In this document: piece after piece, positions 2,777-64,000 of the stretch | Layout: every line of letters starts with the position of its first letter | Numbering within the stretch: position 1 is the stretch's first letter | Source of the DNA: a virus | DNA: 64,000 bases | Reading direction: 5' to 3' (one strand) | Virus record (IMG/VR): IMGVR_UViG_3300025671_000044 | Coordinates: 33,760 to 97,759 of that record | Position numbers and translations under genes: made by a program | Notes under the pieces: model-generated | Seen by the model: the letters and a program-made list of their open reading frames with translations, nothing else | The model's database searches: none | Told to the model about the DNA's origin: nothing

Positions 2777-3325
2777 TTAGCTCCCTATTGTGCTTTTGTT
2801 ATTTTGTGGATCTTCTTTTGTTGTTTCCATTTTAAATCCATCTTGTGCATCTGCTCTTTCTTTACGTGCAGTTTCTAATTCTTTTAGCAAATCCATAATA
2901 CGTGATTCGCCTGCTTGGTCCTGTGCAGAAACGCCTTCTAACTCTTCTTTGGTTAACATAGGCTCATACGGACCATCATCTTTTTTCTCTTGATATTCTT
3001 CTCTTGGATCGGTAGGACTTCTTACAATGATATGACTTTGTTCAATACCGCAACAGTTTCCAATATATTCTTGAATATAGTCTGGGGTGCTTGGATACTG
3101 TAATTCTGCTTCATAGTAATACACTTCGCAGTTTTCCAATTGTGGAAAGTCTAGTGGACGCTCTTGAATCGGAGTTTTCTTTGGCGCTGACAAACTTTTT
3201 ACAGCATATTTTTCAAGGCATTTTTTAAGATTTTCTTCACACTTGTCAGGAAGTTCTCCTGCAATGCCAATTTTAAATGGATACACTTTATGTGTTTCTG
3301 TTAGATATTCTGTAAAACTTTTCAT
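2777..3325 (-). CDS. Hypothetical protein in the terminase cluster
   Basis: The protein has 182 residues and begins MKSFTEYLTE, a start often seen in phage structural proteins. The first 110 residues look like a compact alpha/beta domain, including FPQLENCEVYYYEAELQYPS and IEQSHIIVRSPTD. The last 70 residues are charged and low in complexity, probably flexible or helical. No catalytic motif is visible and I do not recognise the family. A GATAAATA late-promoter motif lies 20 bases upstream, overlapping the end of gp16, and AGGAAA serves as a plausible ribosome site. It abuts the next gene by 2 bases, so the pair is likely co-expressed. Confidence 0.8.
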   Translation of the reverse strand: MKSFTEYLTETHKVYPFKIGIAGELPDKCEENLKKCLEKYAVKSLSAPKKTPIQERPLDFPQLENCEVYYYEAELQYPSTPDYIQEYIGNCCGIEQSHIIVRSPTDPREEYQEKKDDGPYEPMLTKEELEGVSAQDQAGESRIMDLLKELETARKERADAQDGFKMETTKEDPQNNKSTIGS

Positions 3326-3344
3326 TGTAATTTTCCTATATAAC

Positions 3345-3830
3345 TTATTTATCTTTATCTAGCCCTTTAAGACGTTCTAACAAGCTATTTCTGTCTGTGA
3401 CTACATAGCCTTCGCCTTCGGTCATTCCGGTAGGACTAGCAAAATTATCTCTATCCATTTTTTCTTTTTTAAGTTGTAGTTCTACCATTTTAAGTTTTTT
3501 ATCTAATTTTGCAACTTTAGCATCAAGGTTTGTTTTAAGCATAGTGCCTGCAACTTCAAATACTCTACCACTGTAACGGCTTTCAACATTCATACCGAGG
3601 TCCATTAAATCTTCATATGCTTGCATTGCTTTTTCAGATACTTCGTTGAGTTCTGCATCTGCTAATTCGCCTAAACCTTTTACCTGCGGTAGTGCAGCTT
3701 CAATTTTATCTAAGTCAGCAATATCTCTCACAGTATCTTGATGTGCTGCAGGCACAGATTGTGTTTTTTCTTCTTCAATTATTTCTTTAGAATCAGGTAA
3801 ATTTAACAAATCTTCAAGTTTTTTAGTCAT
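3345..3830 (-). CDS. gp16: Terminase small subunit (gp16)
   Basis: The product regulates packaging initiation by gp17. It is short and nearly all helical: an acidic N-terminus (MTKKLEDLLNLPDSKEIIEE), a central helix pair including AMQAYEDLMDLGMNVESRYS, and a long basic coiled coil (NLDAKVAKLDKKLKMVELQLKK reduced form), ending in a flexible tail. This order and length (161 residues, T4 gp16 has 164) match the T4-type small terminase. An in-frame ATG 12 bases earlier (3842) is possible; I prefer 3830 because GGAAAC sits 6 bases before it. Head-completion gp4 lies immediately upstream and an ACTAAATA late motif lies between them. Confidence 0.85.
   Translation of the reverse strand: MTKKLEDLLNLPDSKEIIEEEKTQSVPAAHQDTVRDIADLDKIEAALPQVKGLGELADAELNEVSEKAMQAYEDLMDLGMNVESRYSGRVFEVAGTMLKTNLDAKVAKLDKKLKMVELQLKKEKMDRDNFASPTGMTEGEGYVVTDRNSLLERLKGLDKDK
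3346..3353 (-). promoter_or_regulatory. Late promoter GATAAATA upstream of the 2777-3325 gene
   Basis: GATAAATA on the minus strand overlaps the last codons of gp16 and precedes an AGGAAA ribosome site and the ATG at 3325. The leader length fits the other late units of this genome. Confidence 0.5.
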
Positions 3831-3855
3831 AATAGTTTCCATTAAATACTACTAT

Positions 3856-3863
3856 TATTTAGT
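3856..3863 (-). promoter_or_regulatory. Late promoter ACTAAATA for gp16
   Basis: ACTAAATA lies on the minus strand 25 bases upstream of the preferred gp16 start. Its spacing to a ribosome site is typical of the late units here. Confidence 0.4.
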
Positions 3864-3871
3864 ATAAAATA

Positions 3872-4306
3872 TTATCCTCTTCTTCCTGTATGAAAGATAT
3901 CATTTTCAGTAACTACTCTAAAGCGTATTTTATTTTGTTTACAATATGCATTTGCAGCTGACCATTTTGCTTGATTTAACAAATAATGTGCTCTATTATT
4001 TTTGCTTGTAGCTTTTTCTTGAACTGTTTGATTAAACGGTTTGACTTCTATTAATTCAACATGCTTTTTACTGTTTGCATCTGTGTATACAATAAAAAAG
4101 TCAGGCACATATATAGTTTGTTTTCCAGTAAATGGATTTCGATAAGGTATTTTTACTGCTTCACTTGCCCATTTTTCTACACTTGGATGTTCATCGCAAA
4201 AACGCATGAATGCAAACTCCCAACTACTACGATAAGTTGGTGTTCTATTTGACATATATTTTTCAGGGTTTTTTAGATTATATTTTCCTTGAGCATATTT
4301 GGCCAT
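3872..4306 (-). CDS. gp4: Head completion protein gp4, PD-(D/E)XK nuclease-like
   Basis: This 144-residue protein begins MAKYAQGKYNLKNPEKYMS and carries the conserved YRSSWEFAFMRFCDEHPSV segment and the nuclease core motifs YVPDFFIVY and LIEVKP. Together these give the PD...ExK pattern of a TnsA-like endonuclease fold. In T4, gp4 acts on filled heads before tail joining; the size (T4 150 residues) and motif order agree. The protein is soluble and basic. Its start overlaps the stop of the upstream gene by one base, which suggests translational coupling. It lies between gp16 and the tube-initiator-like gene. Confidence 0.88.
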   Translation of the reverse strand: MAKYAQGKYNLKNPEKYMSNRTPTYRSSWEFAFMRFCDEHPSVEKWASEAVKIPYRNPFTGKQTIYVPDFFIVYTDANSKKHVELIEVKPFNQTVQEKATSKNNRAHYLLNQAKWSAANAYCKQNKIRFRVVTENDIFHTGRRG

Positions 4307-4671
4307 TATACTATGATGTTTCTTGCTGTTAAATTCTCTGCACTGTTATTGATTTTTTTCACACCAATTTTGCTAATTTTTGATCTATTAGCATTTAGTA
4401 TAGCTGTAATTAAATCAGTAAGTTTAATTCTGTCAAGTGTTTTAATATCTTCTAAAAGTTCCATAATATTTACACCATCAACTTTAGCTTGTGTCAACAA
4501 CACACTTGCAACACTTTGAGCAGCAGTAGTTTCAAATCCACGTGATTGAAAAAATCCAACAACAGCATCTACTGAATTACTTGGAAAACTTATTGATTTT
4601 TTGTTTTGATTACTGAAAACTTCTCTAGTTTCTACTAAAGAGTCTTGTAGTATTTGTTGAATTTCTGTCAT
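4306..4671 (-). CDS. Hypothetical protein between gp4 and the tube initiator
   Basis: This is a mostly helical protein of 121 residues. It begins MTEIQQILQDSLVETREVFS and includes VVGFFQSRGFETTAAQSVAS and a run of amphipathic helices ending near LTARNIIV. I see no catalytic residues, signal peptide or metal site. Its start lies 2 bases downstream of the gp54-like gene and its stop overlaps gp4 by one base, so all three are probably one transcript. The context suggests a neck, tail or head-completion accessory role, but the function is unknown. Confidence 0.75.
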   Translation of the reverse strand: MTEIQQILQDSLVETREVFSNQNKKSISFPSNSVDAVVGFFQSRGFETTAAQSVASVLLTQAKVDGVNIMELLEDIKTLDRIKLTDLITAILNANRSKISKIGVKKINNSAENLTARNIIV

Positions 4672-4673
4672 AA

Positions 4674-5759
4674 TTAAAATACCTTAGGTCGTGCGTTTGT
4701 AACACCTCTAGAGGATGCTGCACTTGTAAAATTTGCATTGCCAACAGCATCAACTAATAAATTTTCTCCCCCAGCAATTACTTCAGACACAAGACTACTA
4801 AAACTTAAATTCCTTGCGTTTCTAAAAGTATTAGCACCAGTAATTAGAGCACCTAAAACATTACCTTGCTGGAGATTGTTAATGGTAGCAGTTGTTCCTG
4901 CTAACACACCTCCAGTTCCAAAAAAACTACTTGAGCCGCCGCCGTTTATACTCAAAGGACTAGGTGAGGTGTCGTATCTTGAATCTCCAAATCCTGCCGG
5001 CACTACACCTACATCAGTGAAGTTTCTGTCCATAATGACTGCTTCATAACTGAATCTCATTGAGTTTGAACTAAACGCTGTAGATGCTGTATCAGCTTGC
5101 TGATGATCCCAACTGTCTACTAGAGGATTAATATATGTAAAACTTGTGTTTGTTGGTTTGCCATCTTGTGGGTGCAATTGAAAAACTTGTATGCTTGTAA
5201 AAAAATTATTAACTTTACCAGGTCTATCCAAACCAAATTTATAGTTTTGAAAAACACTTCCTGTTCCATAGCCGGTGTTTCTGCCTGCTTCTCTTAGATA
5301 TGCAGGATCTCCTATTTCGGGACTAGTTCCATTTGATGTTGTATGAGTAGCATCACTGAAATAATAATTAAAATAACTTTGCCATAAAAAATTACTTATA
5401 CCAGCATTATCATCATGCCATTCCATGCTAACTGGAGAGTATTCAACTCCTGTTTGCGTGACTTTTTTCCTATTATACTGGTTTAGTGTTGTTGTAGAAA
5501 TATTATAGGTTGGTAAGTCGATTCTTTTACAAAGTAAATTTATTTCTCTTTTTACTGAATTGTTAAATGTTCCAAAATTACTTAGAGTTATTTGTGGATT
5601 AATATTTAAAACTACATGAAATAAGTTTTCGTTTTTTGGAGCAAGACGCATGTTTCCGTCTACAAAAACATTAGATGCGTGAGAATAGTCTCCTAAATTA
5701 CCTTTAGGACTTAACGCACCTTTAATTAAATTATCAAAAAAACCACTGAATATTGCCAT
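4674..5759 (-). CDS. gp54: Baseplate tail-tube initiator, gp54-like
   Basis: The protein has 361 residues (T4 gp54 has 320). Tube-protein-like features are visible: LFHVVLNINPQI early on, ICKRIDLPTYNIS-type strand segments, PVSMEWHDDNAGI, and SMRFSYEAVIMDRNF, a pattern seen in proteins that share the gp19 tube fold (gp48, gp54). The C-terminal third is Gly/Ser/Asn-rich and probably flexible. In T4, gp54 caps the baseplate and starts tube assembly. Tube protein gp19 is the next gene upstream. A GATAAATA motif lies only 4 bases before the ATG with no ribosome site. A gp19 paralogue or gp48 are alternatives; a better gp48 candidate lies at 57291. Confidence 0.6.
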   Translation of the reverse strand: MAIFSGFFDNLIKGALSPKGNLGDYSHASNVFVDGNMRLAPKNENLFHVVLNINPQITLSNFGTFNNSVKREINLLCKRIDLPTYNISTTTLNQYNRKKVTQTGVEYSPVSMEWHDDNAGISNFLWQSYFNYYFSDATHTTSNGTSPEIGDPAYLREAGRNTGYGTGSVFQNYKFGLDRPGKVNNFFTSIQVFQLHPQDGKPTNTSFTYINPLVDSWDHQQADTASTAFSSNSMRFSYEAVIMDRNFTDVGVVPAGFGDSRYDTSPSPLSINGGGSSSFFGTGGVLAGTTATINNLQQGNVLGALITGANTFRNARNLSFSSLVSEVIAGGENLLVDAVGNANFTSAASSRGVTNARPKVF

Positions 5760-5763
5760 ATTG

Positions 5764-5771
5764 TATTTATC
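5764..5771 (-). promoter_or_regulatory. Late promoter GATAAATA, 4 bases from a start codon
   Basis: The minus strand reads GATAAATA, CAAT, ATG. As with gp17, a transcript started here would be leaderless or nearly so. Confidence 0.55.
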
Positions 5772-5797
5772 ACTTATTTAAACTGCGTATAAAATAA

Positions 5798-5827
5798 AAA
5801 GGAGTATATATTTCTATATACTCCTTT
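5798..5827 (-). terminator. Strong terminator after gp19
   Basis: A perfect 13-bp stem (AAAGGAGTATATA and its complement) with a four-base loop is followed on the minus strand by a T-rich tract. It ends the tail tube transcript 28 bases after the gp19 stop. A T-rich flank on the other side may let it work in both directions. Confidence 0.9.
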
Positions 5828-5855
5828 ATTATAATAGCAATCTGTATTTTAAGTA

Positions 5856-6479
5856 TCAGCCACCGCCTGTGACGTTTGTGCCTAACGATCTGCCTACTAA
5901 TGTTCCAACACCTGTGTTTTCAGGAGTTTGAATTGCATTGTCGTATTGAATACTTAATGTAATATTTACTGGTTCGTTGTTTGCATAAGCAAGTGAGTTA
6001 TAGTTTGCTTCAGTAATAAAACAACCATAACATTCCCAAGTCTCTAAAACATTCACGCCAAGTGCACCATTTCCGCCATCTAATATTTCGATGCGAGTGA
6101 CGAATTTGTAATCCTGTCCTGAGTTTGCACTTGCTTGTTCCATAAAGTCAAACTGTTTCTGTAATTGTTCACCAACTAGTTTTTGCACATTGTTGTTTAC
6201 GTCTTCACGTAGATTTAAACTCAATGGACTCCATGTGTGTTTACCAGCTAGATAAACTTTACTGTTATAGATTGGTATTTCCATGTTTTCAAATGTTAGC
6301 GTAGGACGAGTTATATCCATAACTTGTTTTGTTAACTCTGTAGTTGGAGTTGATACGCCAAAATTTTCAAGTGTAACACGGAAACGATATTGCAGTTTTG
6401 GCATTAACAAACCTTGACTGCTTGCGCTGTCATTTGTTGCTAATGGAACTGTTAATTTTGATAATGATGAGATTGCCAT
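5856..6479 (-). CDS. gp19: Tail tube protein gp19
   Basis: This is the major protein of the inner tail tube. It has 207 residues (T4 gp19 has 163) with the tube-fold landmarks LQYRFRVTLENFG near residue 30, DITRPTLTFENMEIPIYNSK in the middle, WSPLSLNLRED, VLETWECYGCFITEANY, and a C-terminal VNITLSIQYDNAI strand. The extra length is mainly a longer N-terminus and a Gly-rich tail. It has its own GATAAATA late promoter and AGGAG ribosome site, and ends at a strong terminator, as expected for an abundant protein made in its own transcript. Sheath gp18 lies upstream and the tube initiator downstream. Confidence 0.95.
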   Translation of the reverse strand: MAISSLSKLTVPLATNDSASSQGLLMPKLQYRFRVTLENFGVSTPTTELTKQVMDITRPTLTFENMEIPIYNSKVYLAGKHTWSPLSLNLREDVNNNVQKLVGEQLQKQFDFMEQASANSGQDYKFVTRIEILDGGNGALGVNVLETWECYGCFITEANYNSLAYANNEPVNITLSIQYDNAIQTPENTGVGTLVGRSLGTNVTGGG

Positions 6480-57290: not shown

Positions 57291-58175
57291 ATGTCTGTAA
57301 TAAATGTAGTTGGTCAGCTGGTAAACACTGTGCAAACAGCTTTTAATAGTAATCCAATTGTAAAAACAGTGCGCACAATTGATGCTGCAAGAAAGGTATT
57401 TTCTTCTGGCAATGCAGAAGACTTTATTACCTTTGTAAGCCAGGGTAGATTAGGAACACAAGTAAGCTACGGTGCTTCACCTAATACTGCAACAGTAAGA
57501 CAAGCAAGATTAGCCGCAGGTAATCAACAAAACGGCGAAGATTGGCGTGTGCGTATTCATCTTCCTGCTGCACCGGATTATTTTACGCAAAGTCAAATTT
57601 TGTCACCTCTTTTTTTAAGTGATTACAGTTTAGTTTTTCCTACAACACCACAGATTCTTTTGTCTAGCATGGCAAATTATGATCAAATACAACCTGTGCA
57701 TACAAACTATCCTTATCATGTATATGAATCAAGTAGGATAGAAGATATCACAATTAGTGCAGAATTTCCTGTAGAAAACGAAAGAGACGGAGCATATTGG
57801 GTAGCAGCAGTGCATTTTTTAAGAAGTATTACAAAAATGTTCTATGGGCAAGGACCTTTGCAAGGTCATCCACCGCCTAGAGTGGCATTATCTGGATATG
57901 GTAATTTTATATTTGACCATACACCTGTTATTGTAAAGATGTTTAACCTAGATTTACCAAATGCAGTAGATTACATCAAAGTTCCTTTAGAAGATCAGGT
58001 ATCACTTGATGATCAAATAAATGTGTCTGGTAATTATTGTTACGTTCCTACATTAAGCACTATTAACGTAACAGTTGCTCCAGCATACAGTAGAACAGCA
58101 CAAAAGAATTTTAACTTAGAATCATTTATTAAAGGTGATTACATTGGCAATAAAACTAATGGAGGATTTATCTAA
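57291..58175 (+). CDS. gp48: Baseplate tail-tube cap gp48
   Basis: The ATG at 57291 (MSVINVVGQLVNTVQTAFNS) has AGGAG 7 bases upstream, so I prefer it to the in-frame TTG at 57285. The 294-residue protein has tube-fold segments WRVRIHLPAAPDYFTQSQIL, LVFPTTPQILLSSMANYDQI and RIEDITISAEFPVENERDGA, then YWVAAVHFLRSITKMFYGQG, and ends TINVTVAPAYSRTAQKNFNL, typical for the gp48 family. It joins the baseplate to the tail tube. T4 gp48 is 364 residues. Its stop overlaps the gp53 start by one base, in the expected baseplate order. Confidence 0.82.
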   Translation: MSVINVVGQLVNTVQTAFNSNPIVKTVRTIDAARKVFSSGNAEDFITFVSQGRLGTQVSYGASPNTATVRQARLAAGNQQNGEDWRVRIHLPAAPDYFTQSQILSPLFLSDYSLVFPTTPQILLSSMANYDQIQPVHTNYPYHVYESSRIEDITISAEFPVENERDGAYWVAAVHFLRSITKMFYGQGPLQGHPPPRVALSGYGNFIFDHTPVIVKMFNLDLPNAVDYIKVPLEDQVSLDDQINVSGNYCYVPTLSTINVTVAPAYSRTAQKNFNLESFIKGDYIGNKTNGGFI

Positions 58176-58474
58176 TGGCAAAATATTCAGCTTCAAGTCC
58201 TTACTTTGAAACACCTATAAATGAAAGTTACATGGATATATACCAACCAAGATTTTTACCCGCAGTAGAAAATGATGTAACATATACTATTGAACCGCAA
58301 TATACATATAGACCAGATTTGTTAAGTTTTGACTTATATGGTAATGCAAAATTATGGTGGGTATTTGCTCTACGCAACATGGATATTATCAAAGATCCAG
58401 TCTTTGATTTTAGAGCAGGAACAACTATTAAATTACCGCAAAAAACTACACTTGACTCTGTGCTTGGAGGATAA
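58175..58474 (+). CDS. gp53: Baseplate wedge protein gp53
   Basis: This 99-residue protein carries the gp53 signature LSFDLYGNAKLWWVFALRNM, then DIIKDPVFDFRAGTTIKLPQ, preceded by a short N-terminal tail (MAKYSASSPYFETPINESYM). In T4, gp53 (196 residues) helps join wedges around the hub; this is a short form covering mainly the conserved domain. It overlaps gp48 by one base and abuts the hub gene, so all are translated together. Confidence 0.9.
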   Translation: MAKYSASSPYFETPINESYMDIYQPRFLPAVENDVTYTIEPQYTYRPDLLSFDLYGNAKLWWVFALRNMDIIKDPVFDFRAGTTIKLPQKTTLDSVLGG

Positions 58475-61423
58475 ATGGCATTAGAAAACCCTTTAAACAG
58501 TTTTGCTACCTACAACTATAACTTTGAATTTGGTGTTTTAAACGCTAGACAAGCCAACGGCGAACAAAGTTATAAAGATGGTGCAGCAGTTACCATTATC
58601 AAGTCTGGAGGGTTCTCTGACAAAAGTATAACTACAGCTATTGAGGACGATACTGGAACAAATGTTGAATTTTTTATAGACAATGTTAATGCAAGCTACT
58701 TGCCTACTGCTAATCCAGGAACTAGTTTTTCAAATGCAATACAAATTGATTTTCAAGTAATAGAACCAGGTAGCGTTGGGTTATTTTTTCAAAGTTTAAG
58801 TATTGCAACTGAGCAAGCACTTGGTGTTGGTGTAAGTTATTTGAATGCACCATTTTTATTCAAATGCACATTTAAAGGTTTTGATGATAACAATAATACA
58901 AAAATATTGCCATCGCACAATTTAGTATTGTCTTTGATAAATGTAACGTTTGAAGTCACAGCAGCAGGTGCTATGTATCAAGTGAGTGCTATACCTTGGA
59001 ATCACAAAGCCTTTTTTGATCAAATATGTAGAATACCAAACGATGCTGCTTTAAAAGGGGGAAGTGTAGGAGAAATCTTATCTTGGGGAGAATTTAGTTT
59101 AGAAGAGCATCTAAACAAAATTGAAACTGAAAAAGCTAGACAAGATACAAATTATATTCCGCATGAATTTAGAATAGATTTCCCACAAGATATTAGTTTA
59201 TTAAATTCGGATGGAGCTTATATAACTACTTCTAGACAATACGAATATTCATTACGTGATAGAGCTAGAAGACAAAGAGATATTGCTGAAGGGCAAAGAC
59301 AAACAGCAGTATCAGATGCTAGATTAATTCGACAAGCAAACCAACCTAGAGTTACAGCATTAGAACAAACACTCTCTGGATTTGCAGATCCGTTTGAAAA
59401 ACTACAAGCTGAAAGAAATCTAGCACAAATCAATAGACAAATACCAAATCCTCGTAGTATAAGAGCAAATGCAGTTATAAATGAAAACGAAAACGAATTA
59501 GGACAAGCACTTATTACAGATGATCAATTTGCCTACGGAAATATTCCTTTTAAAACATTAGTTGACGGTCAAATAAGAGAAAACCCAGACGGAACAAAAG
59601 TGATTACTAGAGGATCAATGACATTTGATCCAGATAATAGAGAATTTCAATTTGGTGTTGGTGAAAAAATTGAAAAAATTATTGAAGGTGTTTTACTTGG
59701 AAGTGCATGGGGAAAGGCTAAAGCAGATGAACTTGCTGTAATAGATGGTTTTGGAGATCAAGGAGAAATAACTTGGTTTAAAATTCATTCTCGTAGCGAA
59801 ATAATTGATCCAAGTATGATGGCAAAAACAGGTAATCCTGCAATGCGTTATACTTACATTGTGACACCGCAGAGCATTCATTCAAGTAGAATTACTGGAC
59901 TAGCACCCCAAACTTACAGTCCTCAAATCAAAAAAGCAGTAAAACACTACAATTATGTGTATACAGGACTTAACACAGATATTATAGATTTTACTTTTAA
60001 TATTAACAATGCATTCTACAAAGAAATGACTAGACTTGGATCACAAGGCGGTCAGGACACTATGCAAAATTCAGGTAATAGGGCAGTAATAGAACCTACA
60101 TCACAAAGTGTTTCAAGTGTTGGCCCAGGATTTTCAGTTACAGCCAGCGAAGATTTTTCTAATCCGTCTGGTAATGTAGCCACAGGCAGTGGCACAACAT
60201 CACCGTCAGGCGGATCTGGTGACGATAGCGGTAAAAGAAGAATAGCAGAACATTTTAACAAGTTAATTCTCAACAGTGACCAAGATAATGTTATGCTTGA
60301 TTTAAGAATTTGGGGAGATCCTTTTTATTTTACTGAAGCTGACTTTGGCAACAATCATCCTCAATCTAGTGCAATTGGTGTAACAGACAAAGGACATCTT
60401 GATATTACAAGAGGCGAAGTTTTTGTTTTGATTAGTTTTAGGACAAGTGTAGATTTTGTTGGCAACCTTACTGCATTAGATCCTGCAAATGCTTTTAGCG
60501 GCGTATACAAGATTGTAACTTTCCGTAATGAATTTGCAAACGGAACATTTACACAAACTTTGAATTTAATGAAAATGCCAGGACAAACATTAGAAGATCA
60601 AAATTTATCTAATAGTTTAGTTTTATCAAATCTTTATTCTAATCCAAATTTAGTTTTAGGAAATATCAACAGAAAAATTGCAAGTCAATCAGTTGCAACA
60701 CAAGCTCTTTTACAAAAAACTGAATATGGTATAAACTCATTATTAACAGGATTTTCAAACAATCAAATTGATAAAATTCCTGAATTGTTTAGTGGCACAG
60801 CAATAAATGATATAGCACAAAATGTTTTTAGTGCATTTAATCAAATTAATTTAATTGCAAATACCTTGAACAGAACAATTGGTGCCCTGTCAAGTATTTT
60901 GCCAAGCGGATTTGGCGGTCAACTTAACAGTGCATTAGGTCAACTTAACCAAGGGTTACCAGCAGCAGCACAACAACTACAAAATCAAATACCTGGATTA
61001 TTTAATAACATTACAAGTAGTAGTCTTGCTAATGCAGTATTAGCTGGCAGTCAAGATATTAATGGCGATATTAGTAGAGTGATTGCAGGCGGCGCAGGAT
61101 TACAAGCCGAAATTAATGCAGCTATTGCAGCAGGACAACCGCAACTTGCGGCTGCACTATCACAAGCACAAGCACAACTGCCTATAACATTGCAAAAACT
61201 TTCTGCAGAATTGCCAGATGTTATGCAAAAATTCCAAGGACAATTGCCTGCTGAATTAGCAAATGCTGTCCAACAAATGCCTGCGTCAATACAGAAGAAT
61301 TTTGACAAGATACCTGGTTATATACAACAGGCAACTGTAACTTCTTTTGCACAAGCAGCAGAAAATTTCCAAAGCGGCGCCGCAGCAAGAATTACTAGAC
61401 AATTTGGAGGCAAGTTATTCTAA
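58475..61423 (+). CDS. Baseplate hub-like protein (gp27-type?), with long helical C-terminus
   Basis: The protein has 982 residues and no exact name from sequence alone. The first 200 residues are a beta domain of tube or hub type (NAIQIDFQVIEPGSVGLFFQ, APFLFKCTFKGFDDNNNTKI, NLVLSLINVTFEVTAAGAMY). A charged helical stretch lies near 270-330. A second beta domain follows (WFKIHSRSEIIDPSMMAKTG, YTYIVTPQSIHSSRITGLAP), then a Gly/Ser-rich linker, then LDLRIWGDPFYFTEADFG. The last 250 residues are Gln/Ala/Leu-rich helix. Position between gp53 and gp5 is the slot of the gp27 hub, so a hub role is likely. Confidence 0.62.
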   Translation: MALENPLNSFATYNYNFEFGVLNARQANGEQSYKDGAAVTIIKSGGFSDKSITTAIEDDTGTNVEFFIDNVNASYLPTANPGTSFSNAIQIDFQVIEPGSVGLFFQSLSIATEQALGVGVSYLNAPFLFKCTFKGFDDNNNTKILPSHNLVLSLINVTFEVTAAGAMYQVSAIPWNHKAFFDQICRIPNDAALKGGSVGEILSWGEFSLEEHLNKIETEKARQDTNYIPHEFRIDFPQDISLLNSDGAYITTSRQYEYSLRDRARRQRDIAEGQRQTAVSDARLIRQANQPRVTALEQTLSGFADPFEKLQAERNLAQINRQIPNPRSIRANAVINENENELGQALITDDQFAYGNIPFKTLVDGQIRENPDGTKVITRGSMTFDPDNREFQFGVGEKIEKIIEGVLLGSAWGKAKADELAVIDGFGDQGEITWFKIHSRSEIIDPSMMAKTGNPAMRYTYIVTPQSIHSSRITGLAPQTYSPQIKKAVKHYNYVYTGLNTDIIDFTFNINNAFYKEMTRLGSQGGQDTMQNSGNRAVIEPTSQSVSSVGPGFSVTASEDFSNPSGNVATGSGTTSPSGGSGDDSGKRRIAEHFNKLILNSDQDNVMLDLRIWGDPFYFTEADFGNNHPQSSAIGVTDKGHLDITRGEVFVLISFRTSVDFVGNLTALDPANAFSGVYKIVTFRNEFANGTFTQTLNLMKMPGQTLEDQNLSNSLVLSNLYSNPNLVLGNINRKIASQSVATQALLQKTEYGINSLLTGFSNNQIDKIPELFSGTAINDIAQNVFSAFNQINLIANTLNRTIGALSSILPSGFGGQLNSALGQLNQGLPAAAQQLQNQIPGLFNNITSSSLANAVLAGSQDINGDISRVIAGGAGLQAEINAAIAAGQPQLAAALSQAQAQLPITLQKLSAELPDVMQKFQGQLPAELANAVQQMPASIQKNFDKIPGYIQQATVTSFAQAAENFQSGAAARITRQFGGKLF

Positions 61424-64000
61424 TGCCAGAACCACGTAATATAAGAACTGAATTTACTAGGAAAAGCGATAACACCGTTACTTTTGATCCAGGCATATAT
61501 ATTGGAAGAGTAATAGGACATTTAGACCAAACTTTTATGGGTGGTTTAAAAGTTAATTTGTTAAAAGCAAATTCAAACGGTAATGATTGGGATGATACAG
61601 GACAAAGTATACAGTGTTTGTATGCAAGTCCTTTTTCTGGACAAACGCCTTTGCATCAAGTAGGTGCAAATAACACATATGCAGACACACAACAAAGTTA
61701 CGGTTTTTGGGCTGTGCCTCCTGATGTTGGCACAAAAGTTATTGTATTACTTGTGGAAGGAAGAAAAGATTTTGGCTATTGGATTGCATGTATACAAGAT
61801 ACGTTTACAAACTTTACAATTCCTGATGGCAGAACTTCTACTTACATAAACGAACTTGGTCAAAAATTGCCTGTAGGAGAATACAATAAAGCATTGACTT
61901 CTCCAGATGGCGAAAATCAACCTACAAAATTTTTAAAACCTGTTAATACAGATTTTGTAAATGTTTTAACTAGAGCAGGATTAATCACAGACGATGTAAG
62001 AGGACTTACCACAAGCAGTGCAAGAAGGGAACTACCGAGCACAGTGTTCGGTATGAACACTCCAGGGCCTTTTGATAAAAGACAAAATGCTCCAACCTAT
62101 CAACACGGTAAAGGCGAAATCGAATTTTATAAATCACGACTTGGTGGACACAGTATTGTTATGGACGACGGTGATGACAAATTTTTACGCAAAGGGAATC
62201 CGGAATCTACACCTTTTGAATATGCAGACATTGAAAACACAGAGGACACAGGTGATGTAACTAGACCTGCAAATGAATTGTTTAGAATTAGAACACGCAC
62301 AGGTCATCAGATACTTTTACACAATACAGAAGATTTAATTTATATTAGTAATAGTAAAGGGACTAGCTGGATAGAAATGTCTAGCAACGGCAAAATTGAT
62401 GTATACGCTCAAGATAGTGTTAGTATTCACAGTGAAAACGATTTAAACTTTACAGCCGATAGAGACATAAATCTAACTGCAAACGAAAACATGAATATCA
62501 GTGCAGGCAAAGATATTGCAATCGATGCTGGAAATAGCGTTGGCATTTCGGCACAGCAAGAAGTAGCAGTAAATGCTGGAGCAAACATTAGTTTGACAGG
62601 CCACGACGGCATTGGACTTTATGGTAATGATAACATTAGTTTAACCAGTAAAGGCACTCTCAATGTAATTAGCCAGCAACATTTGGCAGTTGGTAGTGCA
62701 GAAAGCGTAGGCATTGAAGGTTGCGAATTTGTAAAAATTACCACAGATGGTGATTATCATATGAAAGCATTAGGTAATAGTTATCATCAAGTAGATGGTC
62801 AAAATCATTTTAGTAGCGAACTGCAAACATATATAACTTCTGCAAATACATTAGAACTTTACAGCACAGGTGCAACTAAATTATATTCACAAGCATTGAT
62901 GAGTTTACAAGCAGATGGCGCCAACATTCAAACAACTGCTACTGAAATACATTTGAATAGTAGTAGTTATCCTGCTGACACTGCTATAGAATCTCGTGAA
63001 GCTACATTGCCACCTGCTCCTAATCCGTTTTTGCCAAATGCACCTGTAAGGGCAGCAGTTGCAGCACGAGTGCCTGAGCATGAACCGTGGCCACAGCATG
63101 AAAACTTAAATCCAGCAGCCTATACAGTTGAAAAAACTAGAGCAGGAACACAGCAAGTTAATAGTCATTTGAGTTCAACATTGCCTGATACTTTTGCAGC
63201 AGTCGGTGCCGGAAGTGTGACACCTGTTTCGAGTGCAGTAAAAGATGATGATATTAATAAAAAATCAAACAGAGATGCTGCTGCATTTCCAAATGCATCT
63301 GCAGGGCAATTTGCAGTAGTAGCTGTAGGTATAGAAGACATAGGCGATCCTGAGAAAGCAAAAGTTAACGTTAGAAAAATTATTGTTGATTTGAATGCAT
63401 TAGGATACAAAGTTGTAATTGTTTCACCAAATATAAATCCTCCATTTGGTCATCCTATTGAAAATGATTTGAAAACACTTGCAAGAGCTGTTAATGATGC
63501 AGCATTAGCAAATGGTGCTATAGTTGAAAATCCAGTGTATGATACAACTGATCCAACATTAATTACACCTGACGCTGCACAAGAAATTGCAGACAAATAT
63601 AGATCAACATCAAGATACTTTGGTAGTGCTACAGTAGGTTCTACAATTGCTTCAGCAGCAGGCGGATCTGTTGAAGTATCTGGAGGCACACAAGCTGTAG
63701 CTGAAGCAACAACCGATGTGGCAGTAGCGCAACTCCAACAAGATTATCCGCCAGCTGGAACAACAGGCACGCAATATGGATGCAATGGTCCTAGCGATGG
63801 ACCATTGTCGGCTCCTCCGGCAGGCTTAATAACTGGATTCACAGAGGCAGAAACTCTTGCTTATCTTAATGCTATTGGCTTTAGAGAAAGCGGTTTGCGT
63901 TATAATTGCACAAATAGCATTGGTTTTGCAGGAAAATATCAGTTTGGTGGCTATGCACTTAAAGAAGGCGGCTACATTAGAAAAAGCGTCCAAGGCGGCA
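61423..64000 (+). CDS. gp5: Baseplate hub/spike gp5 with SGNH-like and lysozyme-like C-terminal domains (truncated)
   Basis: The frame starts at 61423 (MPEPRNIRTEFTRKSDNTVT), overlapping the previous stop by one base, and is still open after 859 codons at the right edge. Residues 1-130 are the gp5/VgrG OB-fold (GIYIGRVIGHLDQ, SYGFWAVPPDVGTKVIVLLV, DFGYWIACIQD). Residues about 330-430 form a spike-like beta-helix (DLNFTADRDINLTANENMNI, DIAIDAGNSVGISAQQEVAV). Residues about 600-720 look SGNH-hydrolase-like (VVAVGIEDIGDP, KVVIVSPN, LITPDAAQEIADKY) but with no clear catalytic triad. From about 805 a lysozyme-type transglycosylase domain begins (AIGFRESGLRYNC, FAGKYQFGGYAL; likely Glu822). It probably opens the cell wall during injection. 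Confidence 0.88.
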   Translation, partial: MPEPRNIRTEFTRKSDNTVTFDPGIYIGRVIGHLDQTFMGGLKVNLLKANSNGNDWDDTGQSIQCLYASPFSGQTPLHQVGANNTYADTQQSYGFWAVPPDVGTKVIVLLVEGRKDFGYWIACIQDTFTNFTIPDGRTSTYINELGQKLPVGEYNKALTSPDGENQPTKFLKPVNTDFVNVLTRAGLITDDVRGLTTSSARRELPSTVFGMNTPGPFDKRQNAPTYQHGKGEIEFYKSRLGGHSIVMDDGDDKFLRKGNPESTPFEYADIENTEDTGDVTRPANELFRIRTRTGHQILLHNTEDLIYISNSKGTSWIEMSSNGKIDVYAQDSVSIHSENDLNFTADRDINLTANENMNISAGKDIAIDAGNSVGISAQQEVAVNAGANISLTGHDGIGLYGNDNISLTSKGTLNVISQQHLAVGSAESVGIEGCEFVKITTDGDYHMKALGNSYHQVDGQNHFSSELQTYITSANTLELYSTGATKLYSQALMSLQADGANIQTTATEIHLNSSSYPADTAIESREATLPPAPNPFLPNAPVRAAVAARVPEHEPWPQHENLNPAAYTVEKTRAGTQQVNSHLSSTLPDTFAAVGAGSVTPVSSAVKDDDINKKSNRDAAAFPNASAGQFAVVAVGIEDIGDPEKAKVNVRKIIVDLNALGYKVVIVSPNINPPFGHPIENDLKTLARAVNDAALANGAIVENPVYDTTDPTLITPDAAQEIADKYRSTSRYFGSATVGSTIASAAGGSVEVSGGTQAVAEATTDVAVAQLQQDYPPAGTTGTQYGCNGPSDGPLSAPPAGLITGFTEAETLAYLNAIGFRESGLRYNCTNSIGFAGKYQFGGYALKEGGYIRKSVQGG

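Follow-up and report, generated by a model that had tools for sequence, protein, structure and literature searches.

The last gene of the window, a stretch of 64,000 nucleotides corresponding to bases 33760-97759 of the 97,759-base virus record IMGVR_UViG_3300025671_000044 (IMG/VR), encodes a gp5-type baseplate hub and central spike protein, hereafter the window gp5, in which the spike is followed by an SGNH-related alpha/beta domain and then by a lysozyme-superfamily domain (Table 1). The gene is truncated at its 3' end because the assembled contig, and the window with it, ends there, leaving 859 amino acids (aa) readable in an open reading frame (ORF) without a stop. The last 3000 bases of the window were matched at 2989/3000 and 2992/3000 positions by two other IMG/VR contigs, L085 and L086 (the loci compared are designated by such numbers), both of which carry the whole gene through to its stop codon; the missing part was read from L085, giving a protein of 971 aa from ATG to stop. 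The peptides on which the initial annotation had based its domain proposal (VVAVGIEDIGDP, LITPDAAQEIADKY and AIGFRESG...GKYQFG) were all found in this ORF.

Table 1. Features of the gp5-type gene and its upstream context in the window.
Feature	Position	Strand	Details
gp5-type baseplate hub/central spike	61423..63999	+	3'-open ORF, 859 of 971 aa
N-terminal OB/hub region	61423..62292	+	about aa 1-290, boundary approximate; phrog_13211, weak Phage_base_V
Spike beta-helix	62293..63102	+	about aa 291-560, boundary approximate; DUF2345
Linker	63103..63303	+	about aa 561-627; LPDTF at aa 587-591
SGNH-related, apparently non-catalytic alpha/beta domain	63304..63732	+	about aa 628-770; models, fold, profiles, residue counts
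C-terminal transglycosylase/lysozyme-superfamily domain, start	63811..63999	+	aa 797-971 in L086
Catalytic-Glu candidate E822	63886-63888	+	within C-terminal domain
gp53-like baseplate wedge protein, upstream context	58175..58474	+	PF11246 E 7.9e-5; phrog_7145 E 1e-27

The window protein matched phrog_13211 (baseplate hub subunit and tail lysozyme; PHROG, E = 8.1e-47, aa 20-393) and Pfam DUF2345 (E = 1.6e-10, best stretch aa 343-427), a domain found in VgrG/gp5-type spikes; weak Pfam matches to Phage_base_V (aa 91-123, E = 0.042, below the cut-off) and Gp5_trimer_C (E = 0.13) were also obtained. Its neighbours are baseplate genes, with the gp53-like gene upstream and, downstream of gp5 in L085, genes for a CHAP protein, gp25 and a gp6-like protein (gp6 match weak, E = 0.047). 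Among the GenBank phages, 66 records matched the window gp5, none of them covering 80% of the query; the best match, to Pseudomonas phages of the PA5oct group, reached 34% over 45% of its length. The window gp5 is a T4-related hub spike, from a lineage without a close isolate among the GenBank phages compared.

The order of the domains differs from that of T4 gp5, as the initial annotation had claimed. Both proteins are hub spikes with an OB fold, a helix and a lysozyme-superfamily domain; in T4 gp5 the lysozyme lies between the OB fold and the helix (available parts of PMC3622015 and PMC5259590), whereas in the window gp5 the lysozyme-like domain, which is of another lysozyme family, follows the hub and helix matches. 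Spike, alpha/beta domain and lysozyme-like domain were found together in 15 of the 80 gp5-type loci compared, and a further locus cut at its 5' end (L049) kept the last two domains plus a spike remnant; several near-duplicates are included among these 16 loci. This arrangement is a conserved architecture and not a product of chance.

A lysozyme placed after the spike is already known from RaK2, CBB and the VgrG3 of a type VI secretion system (T6SS). In gp078 of the Klebsiella phage RaK2 the lysozyme follows the beta-helix, in what was called a very unusual domain composition (PMC3622015), and CBB_240 joins a gp5 N-terminus to a C-terminal lysozyme domain (PMC5259590). Both resemble the window gp5 in these respects, but the available parts of the two papers mention no SGNH-like domain for them, and the alignments with RaK2 (30.5%, query residues 21-391) and CBB (28.1%, 21-433) did not extend beyond the N-terminal half of the window gp5. 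The same order of spike, middle domain and C-terminal wall enzyme is described for VgrG3cp of the Vibrio cholerae T6SS, which carries a peptidoglycan-binding domain in the middle and a muramidase-type domain at the end; in contrast to the window gp5, it is a secretion-system effector with an immunity gene, and the excerpt available does not describe its binding domain as SGNH-like (PMC9927483). The gp5 of Sinorhizobium phage phiM9 (L083, phrog_27932) has the same transglycosylase-like module as the window gp5 (34.8% identical over 90% of the module), but there it occupies aa 333-493 and precedes a helix-type stretch (phrog_430, aa 515-739), a T4-like order.

The last domain had been proposed to belong to the lysozyme superfamily, and several comparisons agreed with this. 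The profile phrog_27932 (tail lysozyme) was matched by the cut copy in the window with E = 0.00096 and by the complete tail of L002 with E = 6.2e-24, and tail lysozymes of Rhizobium/Agrobacterium phages showed about 35% identity to the domain over up to 90% of it; Pfam gave no match for the transglycosylase domain of L002 or L015 at E up to 10. A two-domain AlphaFold model (model 2; L086 aa 616-971, pLDDT 86.9, pTM 0.66) was built on a 31-row alignment comprising 10 of the 13 distinct rows of the window clade and 21 of the 28 rows with the transglycosylase only; the cyanophage row L111, put in the wrong domain by MAFFT, and L143, which read like a duplicate of L148, were dropped, and six transglycosylase rows and three clade rows were left out besides. 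In the fold comparison this predicted model matched MltC and MltE (Z 10.7), Slt (9.8) and phiKZ gp144 (9.5), and 36 of the 50 matches listed were lysozymes or transglycosylases. Foldseek searches with the two-domain model found nothing in the PDB at E up to 0.001 (best E 0.014), and in BFVD a phage hub/tail lysozyme (E 1.3e-11) and a gp5/Vgr-type protein (E 2.3e-11) were recovered. The E-S motif formed by Glu822 and Ser823 (E207 and S208 in the alignment) was invariant in 31/31 rows, and blastp over all the loci compared, many of them near-duplicates, found the Glu kept in 122/122 ORFs with the transglycosylase module. Judged from the predicted fold and the catalytic-Glu motif, the last domain is a lysozyme-superfamily domain of the lytic-transglycosylase (GH23-like) type, which would make it a muramidase.

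The window hub or helix was also matched in 111 of these 122 ORFs, and the module came after them in 111/111. Five of the 11 ORFs lacking such a match are cut by a contig end (L178, L104, L193, L191 and L199), and the SGNH-like domain precedes the module in two of the five; in L084 the module stands at the end of a long ORF, and L083 (phiM9), with its T4-like order, is another of the 11. In four ORFs of 1024-1072 aa that lack a window hub or helix match (L150, L174, L179 and L180), the module lies at aa 163-345.

The tails that follow the spike in the 80 loci were typed by blastp against ten representatives, the types being defined by the Pfam and PHROG matches obtained with one or two representatives per type (GH19 below the Pfam cut-off); many of the loci are near-duplicates, so that the counts are not independent. 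The SGNH-like plus transglycosylase tail (n = 16) stood beside two GH19-like groups (n = 17 and n = 11), M15 peptidase-like (n = 13), Phage_lysozyme2 (n = 4), GH24 (n = 4) and transglycosylase-only tails (n = 3), a VgrG3-like C-terminal domain (n = 1) and two untyped kinds (n = 2 and n = 1); five loci had closed ORFs with short tails, one of which (L072) continues in another frame, and three were cut by the contig end. The L057 tail matched Transglycosylas below the Pfam cut-off (E 0.0051), and the L069 tail had no Pfam match at E up to 10. Of the 80 ORFs, 77 have within their final 500 aa a DT(F/Y) motif like that in the linker of the window gp5.

Some of these tails were unusual in other ways. 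The gp5 of L072 is split into two overlapping ORFs in different frames (2873-4720, 616 aa, and 4699-6387, 563 aa), and the frameshift may be either genomic or made by the assembly. In the tails L031:5927-7294 and L072:4699-6387, a Phage_lysozyme2 domain (by Pfam for L031, by eye for L072) is followed by an M15-like stretch seen by eye, so that these two spikes possibly carry two wall enzymes. The C-terminal module of another gp5 relative (L071:4450-5148) had no Pfam match at E up to 1, and that of L078:5954-6733 had none at E up to 10 and a weak PHROG endolysin match (E 0.23).

For the domain between spike and enzyme, the initial annotation had suggested a likeness to SGNH hydrolases (for a review, see PMC9487903). 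Direct searches returned little. With the middle domains of the window gp5 and of L003, Pfam returned no match at E up to 10, and with the middle segment of L015 only two weak ones (AA_kinase, E 0.1; HNH_repeat, E 0.23); a sequence-profile search of the PDB found nothing with one alignment and a single chance-level match with a second (acetylglutamate kinase, E 0.72). A canonical SGNH domain (PF13472) was not found in the record itself or in 6 records of relatives, and 5 records searched for PAAR (PF05488) yielded none; the records of both searches may be fragments, so that the PAAR result says nothing about a tip protein.

Five alternating strands were predicted in the domain, with a block III-like G-I-E-D at aa 636-639 and a block I-like F-G-S at aa 733-735. 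When a model of aa 624-737 built from 9 rows (model 1; pLDDT 88.4, pTM 0.82) was compared with known folds, about half of the 50 matches listed were SGNH/GDSL esterases as we read their titles (Z 6.2-7.3), and residues 1 to about 105 of the model paired mostly with the second half of SGNH enzymes (e.g. TesA 59-178). No SGNH match was among the 50 listed for the two-domain model.

The relation was examined with family profiles, which covered SGNH and Usp among the Rossmann-like folds. The SGNH profile consisted of 28 bacterial proteins (PF13472) from 30 loci, of which L309, matching only from position 29, was left out and L310 failed the motif filter; the Usp profile consisted of 11 proteins, also from 30 loci, L328, L330 and L331 having been left out beforehand, 15 of the remaining 27 having passed the motif filter and 4 of those 15 having been dropped by eye as misread or odd. 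In hhalign, the 10 gp5 rows matched the SGNH profile with a score of 40.6 (probability 88, E = 3e-6), against 12.0 +/- 1.7 and a maximum of 15.8 for 60 column-shuffled versions, and all 17 phage rows (the 10 from gp5 and 7 from cyanophages) scored 38.4 (shuffle maximum 18.5). The match extended over 67 columns (query columns 7-76), comprising block III and then a helix, a strand and a helix. The SGNH relation of the first half of the domain is well supported by these profiles for the gp5 rows; the likeness seen in the initial annotation held for block III and the next strand-helix, and the rest of the domain was at shuffle level.

The initial annotation had further allowed for a second domain acting on wall or glycan, and as far as catalysis is concerned the residue counts did not support this. 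In the 17 distinct rows, the block III Asn was present in 0/17 (with E, G, D or K instead), the GDS motif in 0/17, and no His column was common to more than 9/17. Because the block III Asn, the GDS Ser of block I and a conserved block V His are missing, the middle domain is probably not an active esterase. An esterase or deacetylase with a shifted catalytic apparatus, for example one removing O-acetyl groups and so enabling the muramidase, would agree with the SGNH relation found by profile, and the available parts of the literature describe both SGNH-fold enzymes acting on peptidoglycan O-acetylation (OatA, PMC5697884) and circularly permuted SGNH families that keep their triad (AlgX, AlgJ and PatB1); with the catalytic residues absent from every row, we regard such an activity as very improbable.

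The part of the domain beyond the profile match suggested a rearranged fold. In model 2 the last SGNH-like helix is followed by two more strands (aa 731-734 and 750-753) and helices, and the first of these strands ends in FGS or YGD-T (FGD-K or IGD-Q in the cyanophages), which by eye resembles the GDS of block I and stands after block III, not before it. An SGNH domain with its first half missing was rejected, since model 2 contains these two further strands. It is plausible, although unproven, that the SGNH fold was opened before block III and reads in the order III-V-I-II. The permuted families AlgX, AlgJ and PatB1 likewise have an SGNH fold with moved blocks, but in the excerpts available their order is H-S-G-N with the catalytic triad kept, whereas N-H-S-G without a triad is suggested for the window domain.

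Outside gp5, the domain has a second home. By blastp it was detected in 16 of the 80 gp5-type loci, those of the window clade, and in S-SSM4-type cyanophage loci, and a profile-guided scan gave 21 loci, mostly on the same contigs. A tblastn search with the middle domain pointed to a tail protein of the T4-like cyanophage ACG-2014d, a Synechococcus phage (E 0.6), which was also first in BFVD by Foldseek (E 2e-7), ahead of an SGNH-annotated phage protein (E 0.0075); S-SSM4 carries the domain as well. Comparison of the cyanophage and gp5 domains by profile gave a score of 64.7 (E = 1.2e-10; maximum of 60 shuffles 16.8), firm evidence at the profile level that the cyanophage tail protein and the gp5 spike share a homologous domain. 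Scanning of genome contigs with the middle domain (270 candidate stretches) confirmed no bacterial relative. Both cyanophage proteins (ACG-2014d gp010 and S-SSM4 CYXG_00219) match PHROG 1200 ("endolysin"), and in both the domain is followed further downstream by a lysozyme-like stretch (GRYQ and similar motifs), which in S-SSM4 matches phrog_90 (endolysin; aa 519-755, E 1.4e-12) and in ACG-2014d was recognised by eye only. They are different proteins from gp5, with no gp5 spike seen in them and a different lysozyme-like stretch. That two distinct tail proteins both pair the domain with a lysozyme-type stretch speaks for a wall-related role. In the open-access literature, as far as its available parts go, we found no paper reporting an SGNH domain for gp5 spikes or for the phrog_1200 cyanophage tail protein; the excerpt available of PMC10684548 mentions baseplate spikes with lysozyme and a tail fibre with an SGNH domain, but no single spike with both.

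The domain is maintained in the spikes that have it, since the ratio of nonsynonymous to synonymous change (dN/dS) was low in four close pairs (L086/L087, 0.16; L177/L105, 0.10; L177/L197, 0.16; L181/L185, 0.17). In these pairs it was mostly less constrained than its neighbours, and in L177/L105 more so than the spike and the last domain. Values of 0.31 (L183/L181) and 0.62 (L181/L173) came from near-identical pairs with very few changes. Forty positions within aa 628-770 were invariant in the window clade, and 14 of them fell in the 33 residues of the loops after predicted strands 1-3, against 9 expected (p = 0.03, with loop ranges chosen by us). SGNH enzymes keep their active site on the side of these loops, and the invariant residues may be at most a modest hint of a ligand or binding site kept on a dead enzyme fold.

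In L183:768-3695 and L181:1559-4516, the proportion of synonymous differences (pS) was 0.03 for the SGNH-like and 0.02 for the transglycosylase domain, against 0.46 and 0.54 for hub and spike; the two C-terminal domains were likely exchanged recently as one cassette.

Taken together, the gene encodes a puncturing spike of the gp5/VgrG type, belonging to a T4-related myovirus and bearing a putative lytic-transglycosylase-like muramidase that would cut peptidoglycan once the tail tube reaches the periplasm. Between the two would stand an SGNH-derived domain without catalytic residues, probably restarted at block III (III-V-I-II) and most likely a wall- or glycan-binding module that positions the muramidase, comparable to the peptidoglycan-binding part of the T6SS protein VgrG3cp. 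We favour this reading, a spike with a C-terminal muramidase and a dead SGNH-derived binding and positioning module, at slightly better than even confidence, which is held down because the clustering of invariant residues is modest and the profile support ends before block V.

A number of results speak against it. After query column 76, the block V-like part included, the scores were shuffle-like (10.2, 9.3 and 9.8, equalled or beaten by 16, 23 and 22 of 50 shuffles), the putative block I/II half, scored by itself, reached 10.7, with 6/50 shuffles as high, and in global mode the unrotated SGNH profile was favoured (34.5 over 98 columns) over the rotated one (24.1 over 137); the profiles cannot show that the two extra strands of model 2 are blocks I and II. 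Ranked first in the fold comparison of model 1 was 7ji4, a Usp domain (Z 8.5), ahead of the SGNH matches, and HAD phosphatases and UDP-GlcNAc 2-epimerases were among the matches of the longer model on the middle domain (Z 6.7-7.9). An alpha/beta/alpha fold with the sheet order 2-1-3-4-5, as in SGNH, is compatible with the five predicted strands if permuted, but the strands are also generic, their predicted topology being a common Rossmann-like order. With the 7 cyanophage rows alone, the SGNH match was weak, at a score of 24.3 (probability 15; highest shuffle 17.1), and the Usp score was 18.9, just above the highest shuffle (18.4). If the domain were a Rossmann-like one of a generic kind (Usp, HAD or similar), its SGNH likeness being convergent, these fold matches would be accounted for; the gp5 rows, however, favour SGNH over Usp, their Usp score of 14.4 lying within the shuffles (maximum 19.0), as did that of all 17 rows (15.9, shuffle maximum 15.9), and on the two families profiled we consider this explanation improbable.

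Other results bear on the binding role. By blastp, no middle domain was found in the compared gp5s outside the window clade, so that this enzyme type also occurs on spikes lacking it. The middle domain is an insertion: in L200 and L189 the enzyme (about 50% identity) is preceded only by a linker, of about 80 aa in such spikes. In two distant pairs with high pS it also evolved faster than the rest of the protein (dN/dS 0.42 and 0.40). Alternatively, the domain may bind nothing and serve only as a folded hinge or spacer between spike tip and muramidase; this would fit the relatives with a linker in its place, the faster evolution and the limited clustering of invariant residues (14/40). Against such a spacer stand the purifying selection in the close pairs and the fact that the domain recurs next to a lysozyme-like stretch in another tail protein, a pairing not accounted for by a random spacer; we hold the spacer reading to be unlikely, though a serious competitor of the binding and positioning module.

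Two neighbouring genes were also noted. Between gp5 and gp25 of L085 lies a 267-aa protein (4547-5350) with a CHAP domain (E 1.3e-7) and a TIGR02594-like match below the cut-off, a candidate for a second baseplate wall hydrolase. Upstream of gp5, a 982-aa protein (58475-61423, +) corresponds to phrog_11190, a virion structural protein, and its aa 876-953 show a weak likeness to apolipoprotein-type helices (ApoLp-III, E 0.0038, below the Pfam cut-off).

A wider proposal, which we put forward only tentatively and think rather unlikely to hold in full, is that the dead, permuted SGNH-derived domain (III-V-I-II) is a wall-targeting module of tailed phages that travels with lysozyme-superfamily enzymes and has entered at least two tail proteins, one being the gp5 spike in a single myovirus clade and the other the cyanophage tail protein. 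The variety of tails places the puncturing spike of contractile-tailed phages as a socket for varied wall enzymes, like the effector-carrying VgrG of the T6SS, and a recurrent, apparently non-catalytic companion domain of these spike-borne enzymes can now be named. If it binds the wall, such a spike domain could help explain how the muramidase finds its substrate during the brief contraction of the tail.

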